From the IMG/VR virus record IMGVR_UViG_3300023180_000265, positions 1-30,518 of that record: a stretch of 30,518 nt of DNA; one strand, 5' to 3'. Positions within the stretch are counted from its first letter, which is position 1; each line of letters starts with the position of its first letter. Below, piece after piece: positions 2,554 through 26,749 of this stretch. The notes under the pieces were generated by a model, which searched no databases, was not told the origin of the DNA, and saw only the letters and a list, made by a program, of their open reading frames with translations. Source of the DNA: a virus. A program made the position numbers and the translations under genes.

Positions 2554-2674
2554 AATTGTGTGTGTAATAAAGGAAATTGTTAATAGTACGATGAATGCCC
2601 AACGATTCTTTTACCGCTAACCATGACTCGTACTCTAGTTGTAGATCTTCACCTAATTCAATATTTACTTCCAT
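2513..2674 (-). CDS. Small hypothetical protein, 53 aa
   Basis: The frame starts MEVNIELGEDLQLEYESWLA and ends FANPRIPDDS. Its ATG overlaps the end of the upstream oxygenase gene by 10 bases, and its 3' end overlaps the signal-peptide gene by 41 bases. It fills a 111-base gap that would otherwise be empty. The long 3' overlap lowers confidence a little. Function unknown. Confidence 0.6.
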   Translation of the reverse strand: MEVNIELGEDLQLEYESWLAVKESLGIHRTINNFLYYTHNYGTFANPRIPDDS

Positions 2675-3297
2675 TTAGGTCCTAATGCCCATCCTACTAA
2701 ACAATATCTAGTACCAGTCTTTACTGGTTTGACACGATGTCTGATACGAGAATCAAACATAACTAGAGAACCTTTCTTCTTTGGCACAGTGACCAGCACT
2801 CTACCATGACAATCATCAATCAATTGAACATCACCACCAGTGTACTCATCTTCATCAGATAATTGTAGTGTGAAAGAGATCTTCCTCACATACTCTGTAA
2901 TATCTTGATGTATTTCAGTCCACGATGGTGGAGCAACTAATGTAGTTTGTTCAGGAGAAGAATCTGCATGCCAATCATAATAATGTCCTGGTGTGTATTT
3001 AAGATGATGACACTCAGTATATGATAATGCTCTTAGCTCATATTGAAAGAATGATTCATTTGCTAAGTTAATATAGTTACATAAGAAAGAAGGCACCCAG
3101 TCATATGGTAGTGACCAACGTGCTTCTACTTTACGTGCTGCTTTTTCTTTAGTATCACCCTTTGCTGTGCCATCTCTTGGTTCACAGTTATTCATGTAAT
3201 AACTAGTGATCTCATCACAAAGGAAGTCGGGAAGATTAGTCTCCCATTGTACAATAGAAGAACCCTTTGCCATAGGAGCAAAGGGTTTTATGTTCAT
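2665..3297 (-). CDS. 2OG-Fe(II) oxygenase (prolyl 4-hydroxylase-like)
   Basis: The 210-aa protein has the double-stranded beta-helix signature of 2-oxoglutarate/Fe(II) dioxygenases. The HxD metal pair is in YYDWHADS (about H110 and D112), followed by KISFTLQLSDEDEYTGGDVQL. The distal His is in SRIRHRVKPV (about H187), and a 2-oxoglutarate-binding Arg is in GTRYCLVGWALGP (about R197). PiuC- and prolyl-hydroxylase-like forms are common in cyanophages, but their substrates are mostly unknown. The start at 3297 was chosen because AAGGAG sits five bases upstream. The longer frame to 3393 would run deep into the upstream gene. Confidence 0.88.
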   Translation of the reverse strand: MNIKPFAPMAKGSSIVQWETNLPDFLCDEITSYYMNNCEPRDGTAKGDTKEKAARKVEARWSLPYDWVPSFLCNYINLANESFFQYELRALSYTECHHLKYTPGHYYDWHADSSPEQTTLVAPPSWTEIHQDITEYVRKISFTLQLSDEDEYTGGDVQLIDDCHGRVLVTVPKKKGSLVMFDSRIRHRVKPVKTGTRYCLVGWALGPKWK

Positions 3298-3319
3298 TGC
3301 TCCTTTGGATACAACAGCA

Positions 3320-3544
3320 TTAGCGTTCCACAGATTCCTCAAGTTCTCCCTCCTTATAATACAGAATTTCTTCGTCACAATCTTCTTGGTCAAGCATCAT
3401 CCACTCCATGAACTCTTCACCCACAGCAATAGCATCTTCAACACGTCCTTTCTTCATGAGGAATTTGAAACGACGGTTACGATTTGCCATGATGGCATCA
3501 ACTTGCTTGGACACAGATTGTTGCTCTTGTTGGAGGGGATTCAT
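3320..3544 (-). CDS. Hypothetical protein, 74 aa, helical
   Basis: Begins MNPLQQEQQSVSKQVDAIMA, has a basic patch NRNRRFKFLMKKGR, then an acidic helix AIAVGEEFMEWMMLDQEDCD. It looks all-helical. It is joined to the upstream gene by an ATGA overlap (3541-3544). Its TAA stop forms TAATG with an eight-codon mini-frame that leads into the oxygenase gene. Family unknown. Confidence 0.75.
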   Translation of the reverse strand: MNPLQQEQQSVSKQVDAIMANRNRRFKFLMKKGRVEDAIAVGEEFMEWMMLDQEDCDEEILYYKEGELEESVER

Positions 3545-8254: not shown

Positions 8255-8812
8255 TTAACATGCCCATGATACCCATGAGTATCTGGTTCCTTTGGTAACT
8301 GGTGTCACATAATGTGGATAGATGAACAGCGATGGGAATATAATATACTCCCCTGCTTTGATGTCAATGGGTTCTTCACATAAATGAAATACACCACCCT
8401 CATAGTCATCATTGAGGCATCCTACCATACTTAAAACAGGAATACCAGAAGGTCTTGAGTTGAAAATAGAGTGAATATGATCCACATGTTCCTCTATACT
8501 CTCACCCACACTATATTTGTTGAATCTAACATGTGTATTAAAAAAAGCCTGAGAGAATTTACCCATTTTGGTGTTAGCATACTCAACCAATCCCTGTTGT
8601 AATAATGGTTGAAACTGTTTGGACAGGGATTGATTGTCAGTGACTACAAAATCGTTGAAAGATTCTCTGTGATCATCACCGTGATTGTACCACTCATGTG
8701 GTTTCCATTTACAGTATTTCTCTAGGTATGTGATAATATCAATAGAATCATCAGCATCCATTAGTTTATACTTTACAATATAATCACTAATCTGTGTCGT
8801 CTGGGAAATCAT
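8255..8812 (-). CDS. 2OG-Fe(II) oxygenase-like protein
   Basis: The 185-aa protein shows a second dioxygenase pattern. The HxD pair is in EEHVDHIHS (H109, D111). GCLNDDYEGGVFHL matches the usual 'LND.Y.GG...' strand. The distal His is in IYPHYVTPV (H167), and a co-substrate Arg is in KGTRYSWVSW (R177). The arrangement resembles prolyl-4-hydroxylase-type 2OG oxygenases of cyanophages. The N-terminal 90 residues have no clear relatives. The substrate is unknown. The start at 8812 overlaps the upstream gene by 26 bases; an ATG at 8761 would avoid this. Confidence 0.85.
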   Translation of the reverse strand: MISQTTQISDYIVKYKLMDADDSIDIITYLEKYCKWKPHEWYNHGDDHRESFNDFVVTDNQSLSKQFQPLLQQGLVEYANTKMGKFSQAFFNTHVRFNKYSVGESIEEHVDHIHSIFNSRPSGIPVLSMVGCLNDDYEGGVFHLCEEPIDIKAGEYIIFPSLFIYPHYVTPVTKGTRYSWVSWAC

Positions 8813-12531: not shown

Positions 12532-13470
12532 TCACTCCTCCACAATAGTTAAGTTATCTAGGTTAGCACCTGCCAAACCATCATTTAAATTGTATTGTTG
12601 TACTTTTTCCCAAATTCTTTGTGTGACTGGAATACCACCATTCCTCAATCTTGACTTCATAGTGATAGCAGCAGCTTCAACACTACCATATATTGCTTCA
12701 CTGGCAAATTTACCAGTACCAGTAATAGATTTACTGAAGTGTTCTGGTACACTTAGATACTCAGTATTGCCATCTGGATCTAATTTGTGATAAGCAACAG
12801 GATCAATAGGCCATCTAAAATCAGCATCCCAAACAAGGTAGTCCAGAATATCATCAAAATCTTCTGGCGATCTAATATTATCCCTAAGATATGCTCTGTA
12901 GGTAGTCCAATTATCAACCTCTCCAGCATATGTTTCTTGAGCATCTGCCAACTGTGACCAATCACTCTTGTTTAATAAAAGTTCTTTAGTTTGCTTAATT
13001 TGCTCATCAATACCAACAATATATTCATTTGATGTAGCAAGATCAGCAATCTCTCTAGTTCTAATTACTTCTTGATCTAATTTATTAACTTCAATAGCTG
13101 CCTTAAGAACTTCAAATAGTTCTTTTACTTCATCTAGTTGAAGATTCTTATACTGATATCTAATCCATTTTGATTTCTTAGTAGCAAAATCAAATTTTTG
13201 CTTTTCTTTTTCTAGAATATATTCACCATCCTCATAAATGGCAAAATTAATAATTCGATCATTATCATTAGACCACTCGTCTGGACAATGTGTCAAAAGA
13301 TTGGAATTGACAGCAGGATCTAACTTAGCGGCAAAATACTCCCACTCTTTATTTTCTCCTCTTGTTCTGAGGACAATAAATCTAGCAAGAGCATTCCACT
13401 CCAGAATAGGTTTATGTTCCTCTGGAGGAGCAATAGATTCAAATTGAAAATCGTCTGGATTGAACGCCAT
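12532..13470 (-). CDS. Putative tail-fibre assembly chaperone-like protein
   Basis: The 312-aa protein has a central charged helical region (DEVKELFEVLKAAIEVNKLD) followed at about 164-200 by LLNKSDWSQLADAQET and NWTTYRAYLRDNIRSP. This pattern, 'LL..SDW..L.D' then 'W..YR..LRD', is the signature I know from phage tail assembly chaperone proteins of the PF16778 type. It lies directly after the giant fibre gene, the usual place for such chaperones. The first 150 and last 90 residues are unlike that short family, so this may be a larger variant or a structural protein carrying the motif. Confidence 0.6.
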   Translation of the reverse strand: MAFNPDDFQFESIAPPEEHKPILEWNALARFIVLRTRGENKEWEYFAAKLDPAVNSNLLTHCPDEWSNDNDRIINFAIYEDGEYILEKEKQKFDFATKKSKWIRYQYKNLQLDEVKELFEVLKAAIEVNKLDQEVIRTREIADLATSNEYIVGIDEQIKQTKELLLNKSDWSQLADAQETYAGEVDNWTTYRAYLRDNIRSPEDFDDILDYLVWDADFRWPIDPVAYHKLDPDGNTEYLSVPEHFSKSITGTGKFASEAIYGSVEAAAITMKSRLRNGGIPVTQRIWEKVQQYNLNDGLAGANLDNLTIVEE

Positions 13471-13494: not shown

Positions 13495-16400
13495 TTAGTA
13501 TGCCTTAATCAACCACTTGGTCCAAGTGTATGGAGACATCAATGCTACTTCATCTTGAGGTGTTAGTGATGGTGTTGGGATAAGTTGTTTTGTCTGTGAC
13601 AATGTAAATGTACCAGGAAGAACTTGAACACCAAGATCAGCAATGGAATTGAATTCCAGATTAACAGATTCAAGACCATGTGTGCTAGCATTTGTATTTA
13701 AACCAGCACTCTTGTTTCCATAAGTGTCATAGTTACCGTAACTATACATTTCTCCGTCATCATCAAATGGTGCTGATAGAGAAACATAATGAGTGTGGAA
13801 CAATTTACTCTCTGGATTATATCCTTTAATAGTAGCTTGTTTCTCTGGGATGTCAACACTAGTAAACTGTTTATAAGCACCAACAACACCATTAAAGTCA
13901 GATGATCCATTACCTGGCCAAGGAGAGTTAGTAACATCAATATAATTATTAATTTCTCCATAAGCACCAGAAGAAGAAATTGAGTTAATAGTTAAAGTAA
14001 TAGCAGATCCTCCAACATTACCAGCAGCAAGAGTTACTGTACCGCCACTAGTATAACCAGATCCACCTGAGTTAACAGTAACAGATACTACTTCTCCAAC
14101 ATTTCCTGAACTAGCAGGTCCAACAGCACTAACAGTAATTGTAATACTATTATCTGGTGCTGCAACTCCATTCGCGTCTACAATTTCATTACCATTTGCA
14201 TCTTCAACTGGAGGATCGCTACCATCAGCATTTTCAATGACATCGCCATTTGAATCTGTACCACCATTTGTACCACCATCATCAGCAAATGTTGTTCCAG
14301 GAATAGTGAGAGTATCACCAACATTATATCCAGATCCACCTGTAGTTGCTTGTACACTATATGTATTATTTGTATTGATAAGTACAGCGAACACAGCACC
14401 AGTTCCAGTCACATTAGCGCCAGGAGTAGCAGTAATGTCTTCATAAACAACTTGCTCGGTCACATCAGGAGCTACAGCATTACCAATGCTAAGATTTTGA
14501 ATATCTCCTCCAGTAGTTGCAGCAGTGGTTCCTCGTATTACAGTAAATGTTGCTCCCGATCCACCACCACCAGATGAAGCAACCTGGGAATATGTTCCAC
14601 CACTTGAGGTTGTGGATGAAGAAGTAACATCAACTCCTAAAATAGCTCCATCGACGGCAAGCATATTAGGTTGTACTAATTGAGGATTTGGTGACGGATT
14701 GCCAATGTCTGAAATACCTTGATAACCTGATGGATCTGACCAATCTTCTGTACTACCATCCCACCATTCTGTAGATTTACCAGGACAGTAAGCAGATCGT
14801 GGTAGATTATTGTCAGGAACGTAAACGTCGTTTCTAGTTAAATATCCCCACTGGTTAAAACCATATTGTCTTTCATATTCATATGTGGTACTCAATTTAC
14901 CAACAAATGTTTCACTAGCACTAGCAGCAGGAGATCTAAATCCACCATCACTACCCCAGTTAACACGACCTTTGAATGCTCCCTGGTCCTTCTGACCAGT
15001 AACTAGTTCATGGAAGTGTAGTGGAACATCATAAACTTTTTGTTTCTTAAGGCTTACTTGAGCTACACATGATCCAGATACCAAGAATTCCACGTTACCA
15101 CTGACATCAGTATAACCAGTGGTTTGTACCTGAGCAATACCAAAGTAATCAGATTCATTTGCTGGTAAACCTTCGGCAGGTGTTTGTACTTGTTCAAGTT
15201 CACCAGATCCAGGATCTCCAATGGTATCAACATACCACATACCACCAAATGCTCCAGGAGATTGATTACCAGGGGCACCAGCAAGTTTGGTTGGTTGATA
15301 TGTAGGTGCTAGTCCAGGAGATGATAATTGAGTACCATCAATAACACCAGTTCCCTTAAGATATCTGTTTCTAAGATCAGGTAATCTCATTAAGATCTTA
15401 GCATCACCATCTTCTTTAAGAATATTACCATTGACATCGTATAAAGTAGTGGTAAATGTTTCACCAGTTACTGCTTCTGCTCCGTATCTATATTGTAATA
15501 GAGCAAAGAGCATAGGATAATCTTCTGGTTCGACATAACTACCATCACAGTACAACATACCAGGGAATCTAGAAGTAAATTCGCCATCTAGGTCTCCCCA
15601 ATTATCAGATTGTGTAGCATCTTGGAATACAGGAATCATAGATCCAATAGGAAGACCATCAAACTTAGTATCAAAACGGATTTGACTTCCAGCATTAGCA
15701 CCAGCAACAAGATATTTTACTGGTTGAATAGAACTATACCACTGACTCTTAATTGGGTCCTGTACAGCAGCAGGAGTTTGTACAGTAAATGATGTCGTAT
15801 AGTTACCAATAGTAATAGATCCAGTTCTAGTGAATCCAGGAATTTCAGAAGATTCTAACTGTACTTGAATAGTATTACCATTATTTACTGTATACTCTCC
15901 ACTAGAAGGATTAAAAGTGCCGCCATTAATAGAAACTTTCAATCCATTTGTGGTGACAACTGGCGTAACTTGTCCCAATCCAGAAATAGAGGGAACTTCG
16001 ACTGAGTTAGTGTCAACACCAGCCCCACTTGCTAGAACTGTTTGGAAGGTAAATGCTGCTGGGTTGGATACAAATGATCCAGCAGTTGTTACTTTCCAGT
16101 CAGTTTCATATACTGGGTAATCGGTAGATCCTTCTACTTCTTGAGTTGTTGTATTATATGTGCCACCAGTTCTAGTGATAAACTCTCTAGGTTCTCCAAG
16201 TACACCAGTTGTAGTGTATTTCAATGAGATCTGATCATTATTCTCTACTTGAATATAAGTTAGTGGATCACCAGAAGAATTGAGTTGCTCGATACCATCA
16301 AGGAGAATAATGGCTAACGCTGGAGTTGATGAATCTGATTGATCATTATCACCATAATCTATTTGGAAATAAGTAGGACCGCCCAATCCTTCGATAACAT

Positions 16401-19400
16401 TGACATTACTTGTGTATGTTGTATTAGGGTTAGCGTTACTAACATCCAAGAAACTAAATGCTTCTGGTTCAGTATCAATTTCATCCAAGGTTGTAACCGT
16501 CCAAATATCTTCGGAATTAGATCCAGTACCAACTGTCACAACAACATCAACATCATCACTATAGTCAGCAGAAGATGTGACTCTAATTTGTAGTTTCTGA
16601 TTGTTCTCGATATAATTTGCTGTTGATCCAGATGTCCAATCTAAATCTACTGTGTTGTCAGAATTATAGATTTTAATTTCAGCTCCACCACTAGCAGTGA
16701 CTTCCACAGGAACATTAATACCACTAATAGTAACAACCTCACTAGTAGTTAAAGTGCTCAAAGGAGCATCTTCAGCATCTGTAAACTGGAAGAAATTTAC
16801 TGTAGTATCTGGTGGTGGACCAGTGTTAATAACCCACGTGGATGTTGTTTCACCAACTTCAACTTGTACTTCATATGGCGTATTATATGAAGTTCCAGTT
16901 GTTGCTCTTAATTGAAGATACTCGTTATTGCCAATTTGAGTAGCACCCCAATCACCACAAGAAGCATCACTATCAGCACTACAAACTCTAGCAGTAGCAG
17001 TAAATCCAGGAGAAGATAATTGAATTGGCACTTTACCTGTAATTCCTTGAATCAGTGCTCTACTAGAAACAACCTGAGTATTAATGTTAACACTATCTAC
17101 CTGATCAAAGTCAAAATCGTCTGGAGTAACATCCTGTGGTCCATATTCAATGATAACTCTACCAAATTGTCCAGGAGGGGCACCAAGACCGTCCAATGTA
17201 GTACCAGCAAGAATAACGGTGTTTGTACTATCATAATAAGCACCGCCACCAAGTCCACCCCTAGCATCTAAATCAGTAGTTTGAATAACATTGCCATCAG
17301 CATCTAATTTCTGGGTAAACAATGTTCCAGCAGTGCCATCATATCCACCACCACCACCGCCAGGACCAGCGCCTGAACCAGTAGCATCAGGAGCATCATC
17401 ACCACCCAAATTAATGTCAGTGGTTGTTGTTTGTAGAGAACCATAACCATCCCAGTTACCAAAAGCATCAGAACGTGGCACTTCAGTATCATTACCAGCA
17501 CCAGCGCCGCCACCACCACCGCCAGCCATAGCGATTAAAGTTCCATCTAACATTGTAATAGCGGCAGCACCGCCGCCGCCCCCACCAGCACCAGATTTAT
17601 CTCCATTACCAGAATCTCCGCCAGCGCCACCCATGGCATATCCCCATCCACCAGCACCACCGCCAGCTCCTTGAATATAACTTTGACCGTCTCCTCCTTT
17701 ATCAGGAGCATATACTCTAACTCTACCGTCAGTAACACCAGGGAATCCAGGTTGATCTGGAAAATCATCTCTCTGTACCCTTAATCTAAGGAAGTTACCA
17801 GAACCACCACCAGCACCTTGAGAGTTAGGAGCATCATCACCACCTCTACCACCACCAGCGCCAACTAGTGTTACATAAAAATCTTGTGTAGCGTAATATG
17901 GCAATTCTAATGTCTGATAAGTATTGGCACCATCACCATCTGCTTGTAAAAATCCAAAAAATCCTAGATTGTTAAAGAGTCGGGTGTAAATTCTGAACGT
18001 ATCATATGCCTCCTGACCATCTCTGTAAATTCTGTACGTTAATTCTTTCACTCCTCCACTATTAGTAGCGGCATTGGTTCTAACATATAACGTAGTATCA
18101 GTTGGTTGAATTGTAACACTATTAGACCAGTTTGATCCATTTGTACTCAAATCTCCTACACCATTATTAACGATTTCAGCATTTGTTTGTACGTCTAAAC
18201 CTTCGATAGCAACTTCAGCAATGTGCTCTTGATTAGGATTAGAAAGGAAAACAGGTTCAGCGTGGAAAGGATATGGAATAACTCTTCTAGATCTAGTAGT
18301 AAGAGTCATTGTAGTTTGTTTTTCTGCCTTAGAAGCAGGGGATGGACCCCCAGTTGGGTTACCTAAGTCAGGATTACCTGCTGTAGGACCAATAATCCTA
18401 ACTTTAGCAGTAGCCGTACCACCAAATGTACTATTTGAGTTAAGTTTTAAATTAATTGTATCGCCATTCTCAACAGTAATTTGAGATCCAGTCCATGCTC
18501 CAGTGTTATTTTTTCTAATTTCACCACCAGTTCCATCAATAATTGCCCTGATTTTTACGGATTGACCATCCAAATTTGCATTGATACTTTGTACAGAAGA
18601 CCCAGTATCATCAAGGATTGTATTCTGTAGATTAGTATAAGGAGATTCTAGGTCATCATAAGCACCGTCTGTATATTCTGTACCAAGACCTGACACTGGC
18701 ATGTCGGCAAAGTACATAAATCCAGGTTCACATGTGGCATCAACAGTTTTAGAGATTGTAATCTTTTCATACTCTAAAATTCTGATTTGAGCATTGCTAC
18801 CACCAGGAGAAATAATTGTGACTATATCACCAGCAACATAGTCATATCCTGGGTCTGAAATGAAAGCTGTAGTATATCCGTTTTCTTCACTAATTGTTGA
18901 AAATGAAGTGCCACTTGATCCACCAGGAAGAAGTTTAATCTTCATTCCCTCACCAGATCCATTAGTAGTGGTACTAAATGTACCAGTGTAGTTAAATCCA
19001 GAACCTGTTACTGCTACTCCGCCTACGCTAACAATTTCTGTCTTAATACCATATGTAAAGATGGGTGTTGCTGCAATAGCATCTGGATATCTATCTACTT
19101 CTGTCCAGATTTGCCAATTATCAGTTACGCTACCAAGAGTTTGTGATACAGCATAAGTACCAGATCCATATGTTGTACCATCATCTACGTTCTCATAAGA
19201 ATTACTACCTCTAGTGTATGTCTCACCACCTTGGGCAAATACTGTTATTGATCCGCTTTCTTTTTCTGTGTAGTTAGTGCCATTAGGCATTCTAACAAAT
19301 ACATCATCACCAAGAACAACGCCTGTTAAAGATGTAGAATATCCACTAGTAGGAGCAGCAGCATTTCCACCACCCTCTACCTTGACTACTCTTGCTACAC

Positions 19401-20193
19401 CAGTAGTTGATACTCTTAGTACAGCATCGTCATCAATGTTAGTAATATCAACACGATGATAATAATATTGAGGTCCACCTTCACTGTATGGAACCATGTC
19501 AACACGATCAGTGAAGTTAATTTCACTAGCAGGAATCGATTGATCCTGTGGTCTAGTGGAAATATCCCACGTTCCTGTTAAGATAGCAGAAGATGATACA
19601 CCAGCAGCAGTATATTCAGAACCAAGACCGCCACCAGTTGTGGTTTCATTTACACTAAATGTAACTCTAGTCCAAGTAATATACCAATCAGGAGTAGTTA
19701 CCCTTAACTGAATTTTATCTCCTGGTTGAATGCCGCCTGTACCTTCAGCAAGATTACCACTAATAGTAGTTCTCCAAGAGTCAAAAGATCCATCTCTAAA
19801 GATTCTAAACTCTGCTGTTGTATTAGACGTATTGCTATTCTTAGGACCGTTAGATACAGCAGAAATAGCACCGTCAATGGGGACTTCAAACCCCGACATC
19901 TCGATTAAATTGGAATAATATGTAGTGTCTCTTTCAAAAGTTGTTCTACCACCAGTTAAGGTATTATTGCTATTGCCATCATAAGCATTTAAATATCCTT
20001 GCTGATCGGTAAAAGTAAATCCAGCTGGCGTAGCATCAGGAATTTTTGTACCAAAAGTAATACCATCAGGATCCTGTCCCGTACCAATACGAAGATTTAC
20101 AGTAACCTGCGTATTCCATGTATCTGGTGTTGGATATCTTACCTGTACGTTATCCCCAGGACTAACGTACACAGGATTGCTACTATATGGCAT
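13495..20193 (-). CDS. Giant multidomain tail-fibre/adhesin protein with tail-collar domain
   Basis: At 2232 aa this is the largest gene in the window. From the N-terminus it has beta repeats with IxPGDKIQLRVTT-type motifs (1-650), then a glycine-rich block (about 770-1018) with runs of up to six or more glycines. At least four Ig/Fn-like repeats of 100-140 aa (about 1020-1500) follow, each beginning with an F-x-F strand and ending in a W-x-V-x-T-like strand. A phage tail-collar segment starts near 1540 (GMLYCDGSYVEPEDYPMLFA, then MRLPDLRNRYLKGTG). Near 1960-2060 are GYxxGDTLTI repeats, and the C-terminus ends WLIKAY, like the IRAY end of the 642-aa protein. It is probably a host-recognition fibre or tail-sheath appendage of the virion. 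Confidence 0.85.
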   Translation of the reverse strand: MPYSSNPVYVSPGDNVQVRYPTPDTWNTQVTVNLRIGTGQDPDGITFGTKIPDATPAGFTFTDQQGYLNAYDGNSNNTLTGGRTTFERDTTYYSNLIEMSGFEVPIDGAISAVSNGPKNSNTSNTTAEFRIFRDGSFDSWRTTISGNLAEGTGGIQPGDKIQLRVTTPDWYITWTRVTFSVNETTTGGGLGSEYTAAGVSSSAILTGTWDISTRPQDQSIPASEINFTDRVDMVPYSEGGPQYYYHRVDITNIDDDAVLRVSTTGVARVVKVEGGGNAAAPTSGYSTSLTGVVLGDDVFVRMPNGTNYTEKESGSITVFAQGGETYTRGSNSYENVDDGTTYGSGTYAVSQTLGSVTDNWQIWTEVDRYPDAIAATPIFTYGIKTEIVSVGGVAVTGSGFNYTGTFSTTTNGSGEGMKIKLLPGGSSGTSFSTISEENGYTTAFISDPGYDYVAGDIVTIISPGGSNAQIRILEYEKITISKTVDATCEPGFMYFADMPVSGLGTEYTDGAYDDLESPYTNLQNTILDDTGSSVQSINANLDGQSVKIRAIIDGTGGEIRKNNTGAWTGSQITVENGDTINLKLNSNSTFGGTATAKVRIIGPTAGNPDLGNPTGGPSPASKAEKQTTMTLTTRSRRVIPYPFHAEPVFLSNPNQEHIAEVAIEGLDVQTNAEIVNNGVGDLSTNGSNWSNSVTIQPTDTTLYVRTNAATNSGGVKELTYRIYRDGQEAYDTFRIYTRLFNNLGFFGFLQADGDGANTYQTLELPYYATQDFYVTLVGAGGGRGGDDAPNSQGAGGGSGNFLRLRVQRDDFPDQPGFPGVTDGRVRVYAPDKGGDGQSYIQGAGGGAGGWGYAMGGAGGDSGNGDKSGAGGGGGGAAAITMLDGTLIAMAGGGGGGAGAGNDTEVPRSDAFGNWDGYGSLQTTTTDINLGGDDAPDATGSGAGPGGGGGGYDGTAGTLFTQKLDADGNVIQTTDLDARGGLGGGAYYDSTNTVILAGTTLDGLGAPPGQFGRVIIEYGPQDVTPDDFDFDQVDSVNINTQVVSSRALIQGITGKVPIQLSSPGFTATARVCSADSDASCGDWGATQIGNNEYLQLRATTGTSYNTPYEVQVEVGETTSTWVINTGPPPDTTVNFFQFTDAEDAPLSTLTTSEVVTISGINVPVEVTASGGAEIKIYNSDNTVDLDWTSGSTANYIENNQKLQIRVTSSADYSDDVDVVVTVGTGSNSEDIWTVTTLDEIDTEPEAFSFLDVSNANPNTTYTSNVNVIEGLGGPTYFQIDYGDNDQSDSSTPALAIILLDGIEQLNSSGDPLTYIQVENNDQISLKYTTTGVLGEPREFITRTGGTYNTTTQEVEGSTDYPVYETDWKVTTAGSFVSNPAAFTFQTVLASGAGVDTNSVEVPSISGLGQVTPVVTTNGLKVSINGGTFNPSSGEYTVNNGNTIQVQLESSEIPGFTRTGSITIGNYTTSFTVQTPAAVQDPIKSQWYSSIQPVKYLVAGANAGSQIRFDTKFDGLPIGSMIPVFQDATQSDNWGDLDGEFTSRFPGMLYCDGSYVEPEDYPMLFALLQYRYGAEAVTGETFTTTLYDVNGNILKEDGDAKILMRLPDLRNRYLKGTGVIDGTQLSSPGLAPTYQPTKLAGAPGNQSPGAFGGMWYVDTIGDPGSGELEQVQTPAEGLPANESDYFGIAQVQTTGYTDVSGNVEFLVSGSCVAQVSLKKQKVYDVPLHFHELVTGQKDQGAFKGRVNWGSDGGFRSPAASASETFVGKLSTTYEYERQYGFNQWGYLTRNDVYVPDNNLPRSAYCPGKSTEWWDGSTEDWSDPSGYQGISDIGNPSPNPQLVQPNMLAVDGAILGVDVTSSSTTSSGGTYSQVASSGGGGSGATFTVIRGTTAATTGGDIQNLSIGNAVAPDVTEQVVYEDITATPGANVTGTGAVFAVLINTNNTYSVQATTGGSGYNVGDTLTIPGTTFADDGGTNGGTDSNGDVIENADGSDPPVEDANGNEIVDANGVAAPDNSITITVSAVGPASSGNVGEVVSVTVNSGGSGYTSGGTVTLAAGNVGGSAITLTINSISSSGAYGEINNYIDVTNSPWPGNGSSDFNGVVGAYKQFTSVDIPEKQATIKGYNPESKLFHTHYVSLSAPFDDDGEMYSYGNYDTYGNKSAGLNTNASTHGLESVNLEFNSIADLGVQVLPGTFTLSQTKQLIPTPSLTPQDEVALMSPYTWTKWLIKAY

Positions 20194-20203
20194 TGACTAT
20201 ACT

Positions 20204-20392
20204 TCAGGTATTATCCTCAGATTTATTTAGGTCACTAGGTCTAACGTTTACCCATGGACCGCCATTGATCCTAACTTGAATCGGTTTATCTGCCGTAATT
20301 TCTTGTCGTTCTGTAATGTCAGGAGTAAATCTACCAGATTTATACATATCATCTGGTTCCATGTCGTATAAAATAGGAAATACTTCGCTCAT
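20204..20392 (-). CDS. 62-aa protein resembling the paralogues' C-terminal end
   Basis: The sequence begins MSEVFPILYDMEPDDMYKSG and then has KPIQVRINGGPWVNVRPSD. The last part matches the ending shared by the four modular paralogues (VQIKINNGSWQNI). It looks like an orphan copy of only that C-terminal motif, or a protein meant to occupy the same site. It overlaps the upstream gene by ATGA and precedes the giant fibre gene. A CTAAATA stretch at 20224-20230 lies inside it, 31 bases before the fibre ATG. Confidence 0.7.
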   Translation of the reverse strand: MSEVFPILYDMEPDDMYKSGRFTPDITERQEITADKPIQVRINGGPWVNVRPSDLNKSEDNT

Positions 20393-20601
20393 AACGTACC
20401 AAAATATGTGTTAGCAATAAGTTGTACAATCTCATCTTCACCAGAGAGATCATCACCTGGGTTGATATATCTATCAATTCCTTCTACGTTGACAACTTCG
20501 TCATTGTAAGTAGTTGTAAACTCTTCAAGCACACCAATCTGCTGTGACTTTACAAGCACGAAAATTCTCCATAATCCAGTTTTTACTCTTCTACTTGCCA
20601 T
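20389..20601 (-). CDS. Small hypothetical protein in the fibre cluster, 70 aa
   Basis: Begins MASRRVKTGLWRIFVLVKSQ and has EEFTTTYNDEVVNVEGIDRY, ending IVQLIANTYFGTL. The ATG at 20601 is one base after the stop of the 412-aa paralogue, so I reject the frame's extension to 20634. A GATAAATA late-promoter-like motif lies 34 bases upstream. Function unknown; its position suggests a structural or assembly role. Confidence 0.7.
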   Translation of the reverse strand: MASRRVKTGLWRIFVLVKSQQIGVLEEFTTTYNDEVVNVEGIDRYINPGDDLSGEDEIVQLIANTYFGTL

Positions 20602-20602
20602 G

Positions 20603-21841
20603 TTAAATTTCTCTAATGTTTTGCCAACTACCATTATTTATCTTGATCTGTAAATTTGGATCATCACCCTTAATCTCCATATCAATTTCAATATCATCCA
20701 TGTTTAGAGTTTGTGACAATCCATACTGACTCGGAGTATTAGAAATCAAATCAATATCTTCAAAAGGATAAGTTCCTACTGCTCCATCATAATCAAAATC
20801 CTCACTTATCCTAGGTTTTCTGGTAACATAAGAAACATTAAAAGCACTCAAACCACCAACAGTAACACTAACTGTTTTAGTATTTGTTTTACCAAAATCT
20901 CCAGTTACACCACTAATATTAGTATTAAATGGTAATGTTGTCATTTTCATGTAAACATTTTGACCATTACTAAAATACTGTGGGTTAGCATAGGATCCAT
21001 TAGCACCATTAGCAAAGAAGACACCAGATGTAGGACATGACACTTTTGTTATCATATCAATGCCAGACAAAGTTCCTAGTTTTTTAGCGTATGATGTATT
21101 TGGTTCTAAATTAGTAAATGATGTAGTCCAAGAATTAGAAGGATTTCTATCGTTGTATACATCAACTGTAATTGAATCAGTAACTGTGTTACCAGCTACG
21201 TTAGTAGCAGTTATTGTGTATGTTCTACTTGCTCCATTACCACTAGATTGTGGTAAATTATTAATTGGTAGACTACCATTAGGTAAAGACAAAGCTACAC
21301 CATTCCAGATATCACCACTACCACCATCAGTTGTTAAAATAGCAGTCGTGGCATTAGTAATATTCCAACTTAATGTAGTGTTATAATTCGGAATGCCATC
21401 AGTACCACTAGTTTGAATTTCAGGACTAGCGGTAAAACTAGTAATTACAGCTGGTGGTGGCGGAACGAATCCAGTCCAATCTAATGCTATACCCCATGGA
21501 CCACTACCACTATTAACTGAAGTGGCGCTTAGTGTATAAGTTCCTGGAGGAATATAACTACTAGTAGTTTTAGAAGTTTGACCACCATAACCACCCATAA
21601 CAAACTGACTTCCATATCCACTAATAGATACAGATCCCGAGTCATCTACGGCAGTGTCGAATGTTTGTCTGCCATAATTATTAAAAGTAATAGTCCAACT
21701 AAAAGTTCTAGTTGGTGTACCACTGTCACTACCACCAATATTATTGTTATTCATGAATGATGACCACCCACCATTACTATTGGTTCCTGTGTAACCTTGG
21801 TCGTTTGGCGATCTGCTAGTAAATGAAGAATCTTGTGTCAT
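20603..21841 (-). CDS. Modular adhesin paralogue D (PA14-like N-terminus), 412 aa
   Basis: Residues 1-125 form a Gly/Ser/Asn-rich beta domain. AVDDSGSVSISGYG and PGTYTLSATSVNSG resemble PA14 or other jelly-roll carbohydrate-binding domains. A PPPP linker (127-130) leads to an Ig-like domain (131-229) with the shared SGTDGIPNYNTTLSW segment. Residues 230-412 are the C-terminal module shared with three neighbours, with NGQNVYMKMTT, the acidic repeat EDIDLISNTP, MDDIEIDMEI and the end QIKINNGSWQNIREI. This layout suits a virion surface protein with a variable tip and a fixed attachment base. No enzymatic motif is seen. Confidence 0.78.
   Translation of the reverse strand: MTQDSSFTSRSPNDQGYTGTNSNGGWSSFMNNNNIGGSDSGTPTRTFSWTITFNNYGRQTFDTAVDDSGSVSISGYGSQFVMGGYGGQTSKTTSSYIPPGTYTLSATSVNSGSGPWGIALDWTGFVPPPPAVITSFTASPEIQTSGTDGIPNYNTTLSWNITNATTAILTTDGGSGDIWNGVALSLPNGSLPINNLPQSSGNGASRTYTITATNVAGNTVTDSITVDVYNDRNPSNSWTTSFTNLEPNTSYAKKLGTLSGIDMITKVSCPTSGVFFANGANGSYANPQYFSNGQNVYMKMTTLPFNTNISGVTGDFGKTNTKTVSVTVGGLSAFNVSYVTRKPRISEDFDYDGAVGTYPFEDIDLISNTPSQYGLSQTLNMDDIEIDMEIKGDDPNLQIKINNGSWQNIREI
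20635..20642 (-). promoter_or_regulatory. Late-promoter-like GATAAATA
   Basis: The 8-base motif matches the T4-type late consensus (xATAAATA). It is embedded in the codons for K-I-N-N at the end of paralogue D, 34 bases before the ATG of the small gene at 20601. The same motif occurs at the same place in paralogue B. Confidence 0.4.
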
Positions 21842-23530
21842 TTATATCTCTTGAATATTTTGCCATCCACCATTATTAATTTTAATTTGTACGTTTGGAT
21901 CATCAGACCTAATTTCCATATCAATTTCAATATCATCCATTTCTATAGTTTGTGTCACAAGAGATGATGCTGGGGTATTAGTAATTAGGTCTATATCTTC
22001 ATAAGGATACTCAGCTGGTTGTCCATCGTAATCAAACGTTTCTTTGATAACTGGAGCTCTAGTAACAAAATTAACAGCGATAGTATCAGTTCCAATCACA
22101 ACATCCATAGTTTTAGTGTTTGTTTTGCCGTATGTAGCATCACTAGACAATTCAGATATGTCAGTGTTGTATGGTAAAGTTGTTGTTTTTAAATAAATGT
22201 TTTGACCATTGGTAAAGTATTGTGGATTGGAATAAGATCCATTCTCACCATTAGCAAAGAAAACTGCATCGTCTTCACACGAAACTTCAATAACCATATC
22301 AACACCAGCAATTTTACCTATGTTTTTCGAGTATACTGTTTCTTTTTCTAAATTGCTAAATGTGGTAGTCCAATTCGTGGTTGAAGGATCTTCATCATTA
22401 GTAACTTCTACAATCAAAGTTTCAGTTACACTTTCAGATCCAGCATATGCCGTTACAGTGTATGTAACTGTGGCAGGAGAATCACTACCTGTCACAGATT
22501 GTGGCAGATTATTATCAGTATACGATAGGGTATCGCCAGGATAGTAAGTTTGATTTATACCATTACCTGTAAGAACAGCATATTGCCAGTTTTGAAGAGT
22601 AAGATCTATAGTTGTATTGTAATTTGGTACTCCATCTAATCCACTAGTTTGTGGATTAGGACTTGCGCTAATTTCTACTTCAGGGACAAGTAAATCGTAA
22701 GATACAACAATACTTGGAGTATTGCCTAGAGAAGAAGAAGATAAAGATACTAGTTGTGTGTTGTATTTTGATCCAGCAGAATTATTGTAACTATTGCCAG
22801 GAGCACCACCACCTCCTCCACCAGTTCCACCAGACTGACCACCATTTCCACCATTACTACCAGAGCTACCAGAAAAATTTCCATTAACAGAAGTCCAATC
22901 AGCGGCAGCTGCTCCAGTACCCTGAGATCTAGCACCTCCGCCTCCACCACCAGAAATAGCAACATAGGCACCAGCAGTGGTATCATAAACAGCACTAGAT
23001 GATCCACCACCGCCACCACCACCGCTATTTACATAAATTGTGTTGTAGCAAGTTTTTGGTTCATAACAGCAAAAACATTCATTTGCTGTTCCTTGTGCTC
23101 CACCACAACAGGGATCCCCATTCCCCTGACTACCACCACAATACCAGTTACTACAACATCCACAACTGCCACCACAATCTCTAGCATATCCTTTACCTTG
23201 ATCACAGTTATATGCTTGCTGATATGACCATTGCCCAGGTCCACCATTTCCTCCGTCATGTGGACCATCTCCACCAGATCCACCACCATATACACCACCA
23301 TTACCACCATTATCACCAGGAGCTAGAATTAAAGATCTAGCAGTGAAATTGTAAGAAGAAAGATATTGGAATGTACCATTTCTACCATTACCACCAGCTC
23401 TACTAGATCCACCCCCATAACCCTGTCCACCTCTAGCACCATTAACGGTAATGGTTAGATTGACATGATTATCTGGAATGTCAACGTTTTGAGCAGATGT
23501 ATATGTATTTGATACAGGAGTTGATGACAT
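21842..23530 (-). CDS. Modular adhesin paralogue C (polyglycine/cysteine-rich), 562 aa
   Basis: Residues 30-250 are dominated by glycine, with several runs of six to seven G, a composition typical of polyglycine-II helical bundles in phage adhesins such as S16 gp38 and in receptor-tyrosine-kinase glycine-rich domains. Between about 109 and 161 are 12 cysteines (including GSCGCC, DPCC and ECFCC), which is unusual for a phage virion protein. An Ig-like domain (285-377) with SGLDGVPNYNTT follows, then the shared C-terminal module (378-562) ending NNGGWQNIQEI. The gene directly abuts paralogue D. Probably a receptor-binding protein. Confidence 0.78.
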   Translation of the reverse strand: MSSTPVSNTYTSAQNVDIPDNHVNLTITVNGARGGQGYGGGSSRAGGNGRNGTFQYLSSYNFTARSLILAPGDNGGNGGVYGGGSGGDGPHDGGNGGPGQWSYQQAYNCDQGKGYARDCGGSCGCCSNWYCGGSQGNGDPCCGGAQGTANECFCCYEPKTCYNTIYVNSGGGGGGGSSSAVYDTTAGAYVAISGGGGGGARSQGTGAAAADWTSVNGNFSGSSGSNGGNGGQSGGTGGGGGGAPGNSYNNSAGSKYNTQLVSLSSSSLGNTPSIVVSYDLLVPEVEISASPNPQTSGLDGVPNYNTTIDLTLQNWQYAVLTGNGINQTYYPGDTLSYTDNNLPQSVTGSDSPATVTYTVTAYAGSESVTETLIVEVTNDEDPSTTNWTTTFSNLEKETVYSKNIGKIAGVDMVIEVSCEDDAVFFANGENGSYSNPQYFTNGQNIYLKTTTLPYNTDISELSSDATYGKTNTKTMDVVIGTDTIAVNFVTRAPVIKETFDYDGQPAEYPYEDIDLITNTPASSLVTQTIEMDDIEIDMEIRSDDPNVQIKINNGGWQNIQEI

Positions 23531-23534
23531 CTTT

Positions 23535-23711
23535 TCACCACTTGTTTAGAGGGCAATGTAATCCAGGTACAAGGACTTTAGCAGGAAGAAAACAATTACA
23601 TTGCTTACATGTTTTAATCGCTCTATTCATCTCCTCACATTGTAAGCAGATTTTCATTTTTTCTTTTGCTTCTTGTTTAACTACTTCTAAAGATCTTGAA
23701 AATTCAGGCAT
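23535..23711 (-). CDS. Small zinc-ribbon-like protein, 58 aa
   Basis: It begins MPEFSRSLEVVKQEAKEKMK and contains CLQCEEMNRAIKTCKQCNC and later HCPLNKW. The CxxC ... CxxCxC ... C layout could bind one or more zinc ions. Short proteins of this type (DUF6171-like) are known in T4-like cyanophages, with unknown role. The ATG at 23711 overlaps the upstream stop by 8 bases. It precedes paralogue C by four bases. Confidence 0.78.
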   Translation of the reverse strand: MPEFSRSLEVVKQEAKEKMKICLQCEEMNRAIKTCKQCNCFLPAKVLVPGLHCPLNKW

Positions 23712-24021
23712 TATTTTCTCCCATCTCCGCTTCAAGTTCTGCTAATGCTTCTTCGTAAATGTCAGAAACCAGTTGGGGATCTACAGTATAATTATTTTCA
23801 AGACCATTATCAAAGTCCTTGATAACACTATATGGTGTCATCTGATATTTCTCAGTGACATATCTTACTTGTTCGAATAATTTATCTAATAACCGTCTGT
23901 CTTTTCTAACCTCAGCAAAAAACAAAGCATATAAAACGGTTTGAGATGATGATGCCACCATCAATTTTCTAAAATCTTCTCTAATTTCATCTTGAGAAAA
24001 TCCAATATATTTTTCGTCCAT
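23704..24021 (-). CDS. Hypothetical helical protein in the fibre cluster, 105 aa
   Basis: Begins MDEKYIGFSQDEIREDFRKL. It is mainly helical and charged, with LLDKLFEQVRYVTEKYQMTP and an acidic end ALAELEAEMGENNA. The ATG at 24021 lies four bases after the stop of paralogue B, so I reject the extension to 24057. A GATAAATA motif lies 37 bases upstream. Function unknown; perhaps an assembly factor for the neighbouring virion proteins. Confidence 0.72.
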   Translation of the reverse strand: MDEKYIGFSQDEIREDFRKLMVASSSQTVLYALFFAEVRKDRRLLDKLFEQVRYVTEKYQMTPYSVIKDFDNGLENNYTVDPQLVSDIYEEALAELEAEMGENNA

Positions 24022-24025
24022 AATT

Positions 24026-25171
24026 TTATATCTCTTGGATATTTCGCCAACTACCATTATTTATCTTGATTTGTACATTTGGATCATCAGTTTCAATAGG
24101 CATATCAATTTCAATGTCATCCATGTTTAGGGTTTGTGTTAATCCATATTCAGTCGGAGTATTAGAAATCAAATCAATATCTTCAAAAGGATATTGTCCT
24201 GCGGATCCGTCATAGTCAAACGTTTCTTTGATGACTGGGGCTCTAGTAGTATACGAGACATTGAAAGAAGATAGTCCTCCAACACTAACAGAAAATGTTT
24301 TAGTATTCGTTTTTCCACTAGTAGCAGAAGAAGATAATCCACTAGTATTTGTGTTAAAAGGCAACGAAGTTGTCCTTACATAAACAGATTGACCATTAGT
24401 AAAATACTTTGGATTAGCAAAACCACCACCAGAACTATTAGAGAAAAATACACCATTAGAAGAACTTTCAACTTTAATTGTCATATCAATTCCAGATAAT
24501 GTGCCCAACCTTCTAGTGTATTGAGTACTTGGTTCTAATCCAGTGAAAGATGTGGTCCAACTATTAGAAGGAGTTCTATCATTATATACAGTAACTGTAA
24601 TTGTCTCACTAACAGCTGGGCGATCAGGATTATTTGCTGTTAGTGTGTATGACCTAGTTGCTCCACTACCAGTAGATTGAGGGAGATTAGTAATATTACG
24701 AGATGTTGTACCCAATACATTCCACGACTCACCAGCACTGCTGGTTAAAGTTAATGAAGTAGCATTTTGATATCCCCATGATAATCTAGTGTTATAATTT
24801 GGAATGCCATCAGTACCACTAGTTTGTGGGTTAGGAGAAGCAGAAAACCCACTAATTACAGGAGGATCATAGTAAACATACAATCCATTACTACGAAATT
24901 CCGCATTACCAGAAGTAATTGTTACAATGAGATCATTATAATCATTATCAGCACCAGCACCTTGTCTATCGTCAAGACCAATTTGTGTGCTACTATTAAT
25001 TCTATAACCGACAGATCCTGGTCCACTACCCTGGGTAGAATAACCATTAGTACTGCCAGCAGGTTTATCTACAAAAGAAGTTCCAGTATTAGGACCTACA
25101 CAACTACCAGAAAAACATAAGTAGTTTTGATCTCCAGCATCTCTAAATGTATTAAATGTTACGGTAGGCAT
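24026..25171 (-). CDS. Modular adhesin paralogue B (DUF4114-like N-terminus), 381 aa
   Basis: The N-terminal 103 residues contain LDDRQGAGADNDYNDLIVT (66-84), matching the 'GGDNDYND' core of DUF4114, a domain often found in secreted and calcium-binding proteins; two cysteines are also present (FSGSC). Residues 104-197 are the Ig-like domain with SGTDGIPNYNTRLSW. Residues 198-381 are the shared C-terminal module, ending NNGSWRNIQEI. The ATG touches the stop of paralogue A. It is probably a surface protein whose N-terminus binds the host or stabilises the tip. Confidence 0.78.
   Translation of the reverse strand: MPTVTFNTFRDAGDQNYLCFSGSCVGPNTGTSFVDKPAGSTNGYSTQGSGPGSVGYRINSSTQIGLDDRQGAGADNDYNDLIVTITSGNAEFRSNGLYVYYDPPVISGFSASPNPQTSGTDGIPNYNTRLSWGYQNATSLTLTSSAGESWNVLGTTSRNITNLPQSTGSGATRSYTLTANNPDRPAVSETITVTVYNDRTPSNSWTTSFTGLEPSTQYTRRLGTLSGIDMTIKVESSSNGVFFSNSSGGGFANPKYFTNGQSVYVRTTSLPFNTNTSGLSSSATSGKTNTKTFSVSVGGLSSFNVSYTTRAPVIKETFDYDGSAGQYPFEDIDLISNTPTEYGLTQTLNMDDIEIDMPIETDDPNVQIKINNGSWRNIQEI
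24058..24065 (-). promoter_or_regulatory. Late-promoter-like GATAAATA
   Basis: The same motif as at 20635-20642, again within the K-I-N-N codons near the end of paralogue B and 37 bases before the ATG at 24021. It suits a T4-type late promoter for the two small genes and the next paralogue pair. Confidence 0.4.
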
Positions 25172-26749
25172 TTAAATCTCCTGAATACTTTGCCATGGTT
25201 CGTTGTTTATCTTAATTTCAACGTTTGGATCATCAGTTCTTATCTCAACGTCAACATCAATATCATCCATATTTAGAGTTTGAGTTACAGCATATTCACT
25301 AGGAGTATTAGTAATTAAATCAATATCTTCATAAGGATATTCACCAGACGCCCCATCAAAATTAAATGTTTCTCCAATGTTAGGTGGTCTAGTAGTAAAA
25401 GTAACATCAAATGGGTCTAGGGATCCAACCGTAATACTAACTGTTTTGGGATTTGGTTTTCCGAATAAATCATTTGCCCCCAAACCACTAAGATCGGGAT
25501 TAAATCGTAATGTTATCATTTTAATATAAACGTTTTGACCATTAGTAAAATACTGTGGATTAGCGTAAGATCCATTAGCACCATTAGCAAAAAAGACACC
25601 TGATGTAGGGCATGATACTTTAGTTACCATGTCAATGCCAGATAAAGTCCCAAGATTTTTAGCATATTCAGTATTTGGATCCAACCCAGTAAATTCCGTA
25701 GTCCAGGTATTAGATGGTGTATTATCATTAGTAACCTCTACAGTTACTGTTTCGGTAGAACATCCCAACGAGTGACACAACGTCAATGTATATGTTCTAC
25801 TAGCTCCACCACTACCAGCTACAGATTGAGGTAAATTAGTTACCTCAAAAGATCCACTAGTACTTGGATTTGGAACAGAAGCAGAATAAGTACCAGAACT
25901 GATTGTGGCACTGGTAATAGTTAGATCAGATGACGCCGACCAACTCAATGTAGTGTTATAATTTGGAATTCCATCTGTGCCGCTAGTTTGTGGATTAGGA
26001 GAAGCAGTAAAAGAAGAAATATTAGGTAGATCTACAACTGTTAAAGTAACACTATCACCTGAATCTCCAGCAGGACCTTCGGCAGTAATATCGTATGTTG
26101 TGGTATTTTGTGGATTAACTGTGACACTACCAGAAAGACCAGGATTTGTGACACCAGTAACAGATATATTAGGTAGTCCATCAGCATTTTCTGAAATATC
26201 ACCAGCAGATGTCCAAGAGAGTGTTGCTCCACTACCATTTCTTAAAATAGTTGATGGAGATACACTAATAGAAGTGTTTGGTGGAACAGATACATTATGT
26301 GGAGCAATCCAGCGTTCGTTACCAAAAGTGGTATTAACAACTAAGACAAATCCAGCAGCATTACAATCAGAAATAAACTGGTTATAAGAATCTTGGACAT
26401 CAGCCAAAACAGTAGAACCAGAAGTATCAACTGCTAATGATACGACACTTCCTTCTTCTGCTTGATCTAATCCAGTAATAGTAAACCAATCAGAAGTTGG
26501 TGGAACTGTTGACGTTCCATATTTACTATCTAATCTACTAACAGTAATAGGACCAAAAGTAAGAGGATCACTATTCCACGCACTAGGAAGACCTAATTGA
26601 CTGGTATATGATGGTTGTGGATTTAATAACCAAAATTCTCTATTTGGATATGTACTTCTAAAAGTATTAAAGTCAGAATTTCTATTATTAAGATGAGTGG
26701 AAGTATCCGCTTCGTCAACTACAGATATACAAACTACTTTTGCTGCCAT
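25172..26749 (-). CDS. Modular adhesin paralogue A (VWA-like N-terminus), 525 aa
   Basis: The first 150 residues contain SLAVDTSGSTVLADVQDSYN (104-123), a DxSxS metal-ion-dependent adhesion site as in von Willebrand factor A domains, followed by a helix and FVLVVNTTFGNERW. The fold is shorter than a typical VWA domain (about 180 aa), so this is tentative. Two Ig-like domains follow (about 155-240 and 241-345), the second with SGTDGIPNYNTTLSW, then the shared C-terminal module (346-525) ending NNEPWQSIQEI. It may bind a host surface ligand through a metal. Confidence 0.77.
   Translation of the reverse strand: MAAKVVCISVVDEADTSTHLNNRNSDFNTFRSTYPNREFWLLNPQPSYTSQLGLPSAWNSDPLTFGPITVSRLDSKYGTSTVPPTSDWFTITGLDQAEEGSVVSLAVDTSGSTVLADVQDSYNQFISDCNAAGFVLVVNTTFGNERWIAPHNVSVPPNTSISVSPSTILRNGSGATLSWTSAGDISENADGLPNISVTGVTNPGLSGSVTVNPQNTTTYDITAEGPAGDSGDSVTLTVVDLPNISSFTASPNPQTSGTDGIPNYNTTLSWSASSDLTITSATISSGTYSASVPNPSTSGSFEVTNLPQSVAGSGGASRTYTLTLCHSLGCSTETVTVEVTNDNTPSNTWTTEFTGLDPNTEYAKNLGTLSGIDMVTKVSCPTSGVFFANGANGSYANPQYFTNGQNVYIKMITLRFNPDLSGLGANDLFGKPNPKTVSITVGSLDPFDVTFTTRPPNIGETFNFDGASGEYPYEDIDLITNTPSEYAVTQTLNMDDIDVDVEIRTDDPNVEIKINNEPWQSIQEI

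Follow-up and report, generated by a model that had tools for sequence, protein, structure and literature searches.

A conserved small phage gene is a free-standing version of the tag carried by adhesin-like virion proteins of the same tail-fibre cluster

The stretch of DNA analysed here, referred to as the window, is a 30.5-kb contig (30,518 nucleotides) of a marine, T4-like cyanobacterial virus, and its right half holds a tail-fibre gene cluster on the minus strand. Following the order of transcription, the end of a fibre-like ORF precedes two collar or short-fibre genes and then four paralogues with two small genes among them. Next come a small neighbour gene (hereafter NB81), the gene under study (hereafter SMALL), a giant fibre gene, a tail assembly chaperone gene and a small gene that matches phrog_4883. 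All window coordinates given below refer to features on the minus strand. The paralogues encode proteins of 525 (25172..26749), 381 (24026..25171), 562 (21842..23530) and 412 amino acids (20603..21841), with C-terminal tags encoded at 25175-25279, 24029-24133, 21845-21949 and 20606-20710, respectively. We call these proteins adhesin-like, a label taken over from the initial annotation of this DNA, and any receptor binding by them is putative. The 62-amino-acid ORF that was noted there at 20204..20392 is confirmed as SMALL, with an ATG start. NB81 (20389..20601) encodes 70 amino acids when read from its conserved start, extends to position 20634 as the listed 81-amino-acid ORF, and overlaps SMALL by 4 nucleotides (ATGA). 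The giant fibre gene (13495..20193), whose 2232-amino-acid product has a Pfam Collar match, starts 10 bp after SMALL, and the chaperone gene (phrog_4697) occupies 12532..13470.

Isolated phages provide both versions of this arrangement. Synechococcus phage Sf-FR1 has a gene order broadly like that of the window. A similar cluster that lacks NB81 and SMALL is present in S-PM2, Syn1, S-RIM44, ACG-2014j and nine further isolates, where only 34-43 bp separate the last paralogue from the fibre gene (T4-GC740 in S-PM2 and Syn1). Most paralogues of the isolates are annotated as virion structural proteins (T4-GC737-739, 1047 and 1048 in S-PM2 and Syn1), and the corresponding cluster of these two phages includes the tail assembly chaperone T4-GC741. 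These 13 isolates were chosen by hand from 49 records, one per named phage and leaving aside Sf-CH1a, Sf-CH3 and AG-345-P14; 11 are filed under Kyanoviridae, and Sf-FP1 and Sf-CH11 under Viruses only.

SMALL was initially regarded as an orphan, which is not borne out by a search for conservation in other phages of the kind that the same annotation had proposed. Relatives occur in 28 IMG/VR loci, several of them near-identical (the same contigs also recur between separate IMG/VR searches), and the SMALL protein of one of these loci (L004/L025) is identical to that of the window. More divergent members were reached by using the fibre gene as bait. One isolate, Sf-FR1, also carries the gene: SfFR1_27 is a direct homologue (38.8% over residues 10-55) with the same neighbours, although it falls in a more divergent group and is annotated only as a hypothetical protein. 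In each of the first 19 loci compared, the giant fibre gene comes straight after SMALL, and paralogues are found upstream. Mean identity among 25 SMALL proteins is 84% in the core defined below and 45% in the part before it, and the reading frames are open and free of decay in all members compared. The three closest pairs have dN/dS values of 0.05, 0.09 and 0.12, which do not indicate the relaxed selection expected of a pseudogene; the overall median is 0.30 (range 0.05-0.89, from 195 usable of 300 pairs). Judged from these sequence comparisons, SMALL is a real, conserved gene that is under purifying selection in the closest pairs. Given the low dN/dS values, the identity of the core and the fixed position of the gene, SMALL is therefore not decaying.

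The association with the giant fibre gene is also consistent. A bait made from the fibre N-terminus, which contains no SMALL sequence but was built from SMALL-bearing loci, fetched 34 loci, and SMALL is directly upstream of the fibre gene in all of them (in one, L085, the contig edge cuts inside SMALL). The 13 opened isolates have another fibre N-terminus and no SMALL. In 29 of the 34 loci, the start codon of SMALL and the stop of the ORF before it, which has at least 55 codons, overlap by 4 nucleotides (ATGA or GTGA), and the fibre start lies 9-40 bp beyond SMALL in the 31 of 34 loci where that start could be placed. The overlap suggests that SMALL is usually coupled translationally to its neighbour gene. 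Together, NB81, SMALL and a giant fibre with a particular N-terminus constitute a distinct variant of the fibre cluster, and the linkage between SMALL and this N-terminus may reflect the common descent of one clade. By eye, the tag and the fibre N-terminus look alike (V.pGD.VQVRY...W), and we considered whether they are homologous. This idea found no support in nine profile comparisons, of which the best reached a probability of 9% at a different place and the look-alike alignment itself 5.2%.

Of the 16 NB81 members, 10 match phrog_6228 (best E 4e-6). This family is of unknown function, and the match concerns the neighbour of SMALL rather than SMALL. By weak tblastn matches (E 0.01-0.7), NB81 also resembles small proteins whose genes lie a short way downstream of a fibre or tailspike gene in four further phages, namely Prochlorococcus phage P-GSP1, two Pelagibacter phages and phage DSL-LC05 (L064 5001-5285, L065 4001-4267, L066 4001-4246 and L067 4001-4255). 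NB81 and these look-alikes possibly form a small fibre-linked family. Inspection by eye of the four phages revealed no SMALL-like tag protein beside the NB81-like genes.

The relationship between SMALL and the paralogues is most readily seen at their C-terminal ends. Within its own record, the best match of SMALL after itself is the C-terminus of the 412-amino-acid paralogue (E 7e-4). The initial annotation had proposed a profile comparison of the C-termini, and when SMALL was aligned in this way with 45 paralogue C-termini from SMALL-bearing phages (44 of them distinct), the result was a probability of 96.8% and a score of 50.5 over 41 columns. The maxima among 300 column-shuffled controls were a score of 27.4 and a probability of 71%. 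Most of the signal is carried by a motif of 16 columns, which reaches 97.2% on its own against the paralogue C-termini of SMALL-bearing phages. Against the 39 tags of the 13 isolates, hhalign gave 97.0% (E 8e-11) over 26 columns. The cleanest test of homology used a profile of 25 SMALL proteins that included no adhesin, which was searched in six frames, after the loose pre-filter of the tool, against the 13 whole isolate genomes (187-200 kb). This search yielded 35 matches at E<=0.1, all of them located in adhesin tags and one of these an internal tag, with best E values per record from 2.3e-6 to 3e-3; SMALL itself was found in none of the 13 genomes. The likeness can be very close, as between the SMALL protein of L094 and a tag of S-RIM32, which share EIKSDKPIQVR without a difference over 11 residues. 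We conclude from these alignments that the core of SMALL (residues 31-51, EITADKPIQVRINGGPWVNVR; 20240..20302), which contains a predicted beta-hairpin at 38-41/47-50, is a homologue of the tag with which the adhesin-like paralogues end.

Several details of the match as it was originally described need to be amended. The W-containing motif is indeed alike in SMALL and the four paralogues of the window, but SMALL does not end with it: ...GPWVNV is followed by RPSDLNKSEDNT, whereas the window paralogues stop six residues after the W. The acidic segment said to precede the motif is present, with 9 D or E residues against 4 K or R among residues 1-36 by direct reading. A lack of significant similarity beyond the W-containing motif had been named as an outcome that would refute the idea, and it holds only in part: the similarity takes in the EI[TK]x[DN]xPIxV segment before the hairpin but does not convincingly extend to the upstream half. 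Significant similarity between SMALL and the tags is limited to approximately 26 residues, comprising EI[TK]x[DN]xPIxVR, the hairpin and the W.

Homology of the N-terminal half of SMALL to the adhesin linker was examined separately, with mixed results, and we do not claim it. With the motif removed, comparison with the IMG/VR paralogues scored 14.9, against a median of 9.0 and a maximum of 18.9 in 300 shuffles. No shuffle of 400 reached the score obtained against the isolates, but only 10 columns around EITADK align. When the sequences were cut before EIKS, the observed score was reached by 12 of 300 shuffles for the divergent group and by 106 of 300 for all SMALL proteins. In a register test of the upstream part (one of its 26 rows, L048, being mis-anchored), the expected place had a median rank within the top 1% and came first in 5 of 39 cases, and 2 of 150 column-shuffled controls did as well. 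Because the upstream remainder behaves inconsistently once the core is removed, homology is claimed for the approximately 26 residues only. The N-terminal half may do something other than serve as a tag.

The tag itself is a constant feature of the adhesin-like proteins. All 39 paralogues in the 13 isolates carry a version that approximates SPDxExxLSDPIxIxDIDIPVEIKSDKPIQVRFDD...NWxxxRQI. A tag profile, in which 11 of the 19 rows came from five of the isolates searched, marked 41 sites in the 13 genomes, of which 39 are the C-termini and two are internal copies. The internal copies lie in a 1861-amino-acid protein of ACG-2014j and a 1789-amino-acid protein of ACG-2014e, which are natural fusions of two paralogues (L023 15490-21075 and L060 9197-14566, respectively) wherein each half keeps its own tag. 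The tag therefore needs no free C-terminus, and by its distribution it seems to belong to each unit, as one would expect if it serves for mounting. In the AlphaFold model of the 412-amino-acid paralogue, the beta-rich domains are mostly predicted with confidence, while the tag, with a weakly predicted hairpin at its end, appears disordered (pLDDT <50 at 349-359 and 364-386). SMALL modelled alone shows the hairpin and short helices, in a weak model (mean pLDDT 64.6, pTM 0.25). Predicted disorder with a terminal hairpin would suit a peptide that acquires its fold upon binding, although the low model confidence for SMALL and the tag may come merely from shallow alignments.

SMALL and the tags beside it differ in one precise respect. 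We define the register as the residue count that starts at the conserved E of EI[KT] and runs to the [QEK][VI] of PIQV. It is 8 in all 35 SMALL proteins and in all 39 isolate adhesins, and 9 in all 45 adhesins of the main SMALL-bearing group (group A). A pattern settled 33, 37 and 43 of these counts, and the remaining two in each set, with double or failed anchors, were settled by eye. An earlier pattern had given 34 of 35, 36 of 39 and 44 of 45, with exceptions that by eye were wrong or missed anchors. These counts leave out the tags of the divergent group that includes Sf-FR1 (group B), where 12 of the 16 tags found have an insertion between the VELExPYGVQI and LEVNV...W parts; insertions were noted among the paralogue C-termini of L022, L093-L095, L098-L100, L020 and L021. 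The four group-B tags without an insertion (L022, L095, L097 and L101) have a register of 9 by eye, counted from a different anchor (the Q of VQIK). Thus, SMALL has the tag form of the paralogues in phages that lack SMALL, and the tags of the paralogues that stand beside SMALL are one residue longer. Taken at face value, this difference favours separate tasks for the two over a simple contest for a single site. The shift could also be neutral, as a bulge that one clade has inherited, or a harmless beta-bulge at the same site.

Our preferred reading, which we hold tentatively and regard as possible rather than probable, is that SMALL is a free-standing docking tag that fills the ancestral tag site as an adaptor, with the adhesins mounted on a shifted tag. 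The tag would serve to dock the adhesin-like proteins at a site of the tail or fibre assembly, as a short stretch that is largely disordered before binding and has a beta-hairpin at its end. SMALL, produced in step with NB81 and the giant fibre, would be a permanent adaptor or wedge that sits in the ancestral site for 8-residue (type 1) tags. The adhesin-like proteins of SMALL-bearing phages would present the shifted (type 2) tag, one residue longer, and the two types probably bind adjacent or modified sites and do not compete. If the docking role is correct, SMALL would be a docking module set free. Among the roles suggested initially, that of a minor component of the same assembly has the most support, given the fixed position, the 4-nucleotide overlap and the short distance to the fibre gene. 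A more specific scenario, which we consider unlikely, is that one lineage split its docking tag off, leaving SMALL, with the ancestral register, in the original socket and the adhesins on a second tag shifted by one residue, so that exchangeable receptor-binding heads have a two-socket mounting.

Other functions must be weighed against the adaptor reading. SMALL might be a plug or competitor that binds where the adhesin tags bind and so limits or caps adhesin occupancy, as had been suggested initially. A homologous core, a shared gene cluster and the presence of little protein besides the tag would all suit such a role. However, a competitor would be expected to track the adhesins of its own phage, and this possibility is weakened because SMALL differs in register from its own group's adhesins and agrees with phages in which it is absent. 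Bearing in mind that the shift could be neutral, we judge a plug to be unlikely. It is also conceivable that the tag is a recognition signal for the tail-fibre assembly chaperone (phrog_4697; T4-GC741), which SMALL would prime, recycle or titrate. The chaperone gene directly follows the fibre gene in the window and lies one gene further on in those isolates whose stretch reached that far, and nearly all adhesin-like proteins have their tag at the C-terminus. This role nevertheless strikes us as rather improbable, given that the two fused proteins retain an internal tag and that the chaperone is present too in phages without SMALL.

Alternatively, SMALL could pair specifically with the N-terminus of the giant fibre, for instance as an attachment clamp, and its likeness to the tags would then reflect a shared ancestor and not a shared site. 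Its linkage to this fibre N-terminus in 34 of 34 loci and its absence from the 13 isolates with another N-terminus are what such a partnership would predict. Descent within one clade could produce the same linkage, however, and the core of SMALL remains very close to isolate adhesin tags, as illustrated by L094 and S-RIM32, and we hold a dedicated fibre partner to be improbable. Finally, SMALL is the counterpart of a paralogue's C-terminal piece and was at one time thought to be possibly a decaying copy. A functionless fragment is extremely improbable for a gene with dN/dS values of 0.05-0.12 in close pairs, 84% core identity across 25 members, a fixed position in 34 of 34 loci, its own start and its usual coupling to a neighbour.

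Database comparisons agree with the placement of SMALL near the virion structural proteins. At E<=0.05, 24 of 25 SMALL proteins match phrog_2155, a virion structural family (best E 9e-5; 0.03 for the window member), and, where shown, the alignment is located at the C-terminal end of the family. Four of the 25 match phrog_17305, a family of 48 amino acids and unknown function, at the same threshold (best E 1e-3), although these matches are weak and the one shown covers positions 20-47; the profile of this family had no match in five records with SMALL. One member matches phrog_9770 (E 0.09). No chaperone family is among the PHROG matches of SMALL members, which are confined to these three. Pfam gave no match for the NB81 or the SMALL of the window, the latter being the only SMALL protein scanned, and one match at chance level for one NB81 member. 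Among solved structures, none proved convincingly related by sequence to SMALL, to the tag or to the 412-amino-acid paralogue, and a fold search with the model of that paralogue returned only generic beta-rich matches with low TM-scores.

The closest described proteins are those of the T4-GC737, 738, 739, 1047 and 1048 clusters (S-PM2p223-225 and Syn1_035-037; PHROG 2155), which share with SMALL the tag core, the 8-residue register and a position in the same cluster, beside the T4-GC740 fibre. SMALL contains the E[IV][KT]x[DN]xPIxV...W pattern of these proteins, with 11 further residues after the tag core in the window member. In contrast, the 39 proteins read are 460-1861 amino acids long with beta-rich domains before the tag, and SMALL, at 62 amino acids with its hairpin and short helices, has no such large N-terminal domains. 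SMALL is thus not itself an adhesin-like protein but shares one defining element with them. The PHROGs category of the families matched by the window paralogues (20603-26749) is head and packaging, yet their cluster is one of tail-fibre genes, and this category looks doubtful.

Literature searches turned up no description of a free-standing tag protein, nor any explanation of the way in which marine T4-like phages mount a set of exchangeable adhesin-like proteins; as far as these searches go, SMALL is a conserved but undescribed small gene. One article reports mutations of S-PM2d under experimental coexistence in ORFs 218, 219, 220 and 224 (PMC9910659). By position and size, we take these ORFs to be the fibre genes around the paralogues. 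ORFs 221-223 are unnamed in the main text of that article, which therefore offers no direct evidence on the paralogues.

The analysis defines a short tag that is common to all 39 adhesin-like proteins sampled and that can sit at a C-terminus, inside a fusion or alone as a gene, and SMALL is its conserved, selected, free-standing version. The precise register difference between tag types can be tested. If the docking role is true, a single tag would account for the exchange of heads for new ones while the virion keeps its design.

The window holds additional genes that might merit attention. Two small genes of 66 and 117 amino acids lie between paralogues (23535-24057). The product of the former has a CxxC...CxxC pattern that resembles a small zinc protein, and a relative of it lies between paralogues in another locus (L011). 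Elsewhere in the window, two ORFs (2665-3393 and 8255-8812) look like 2OG-Fe(II) oxygenases when their sequences are read directly.
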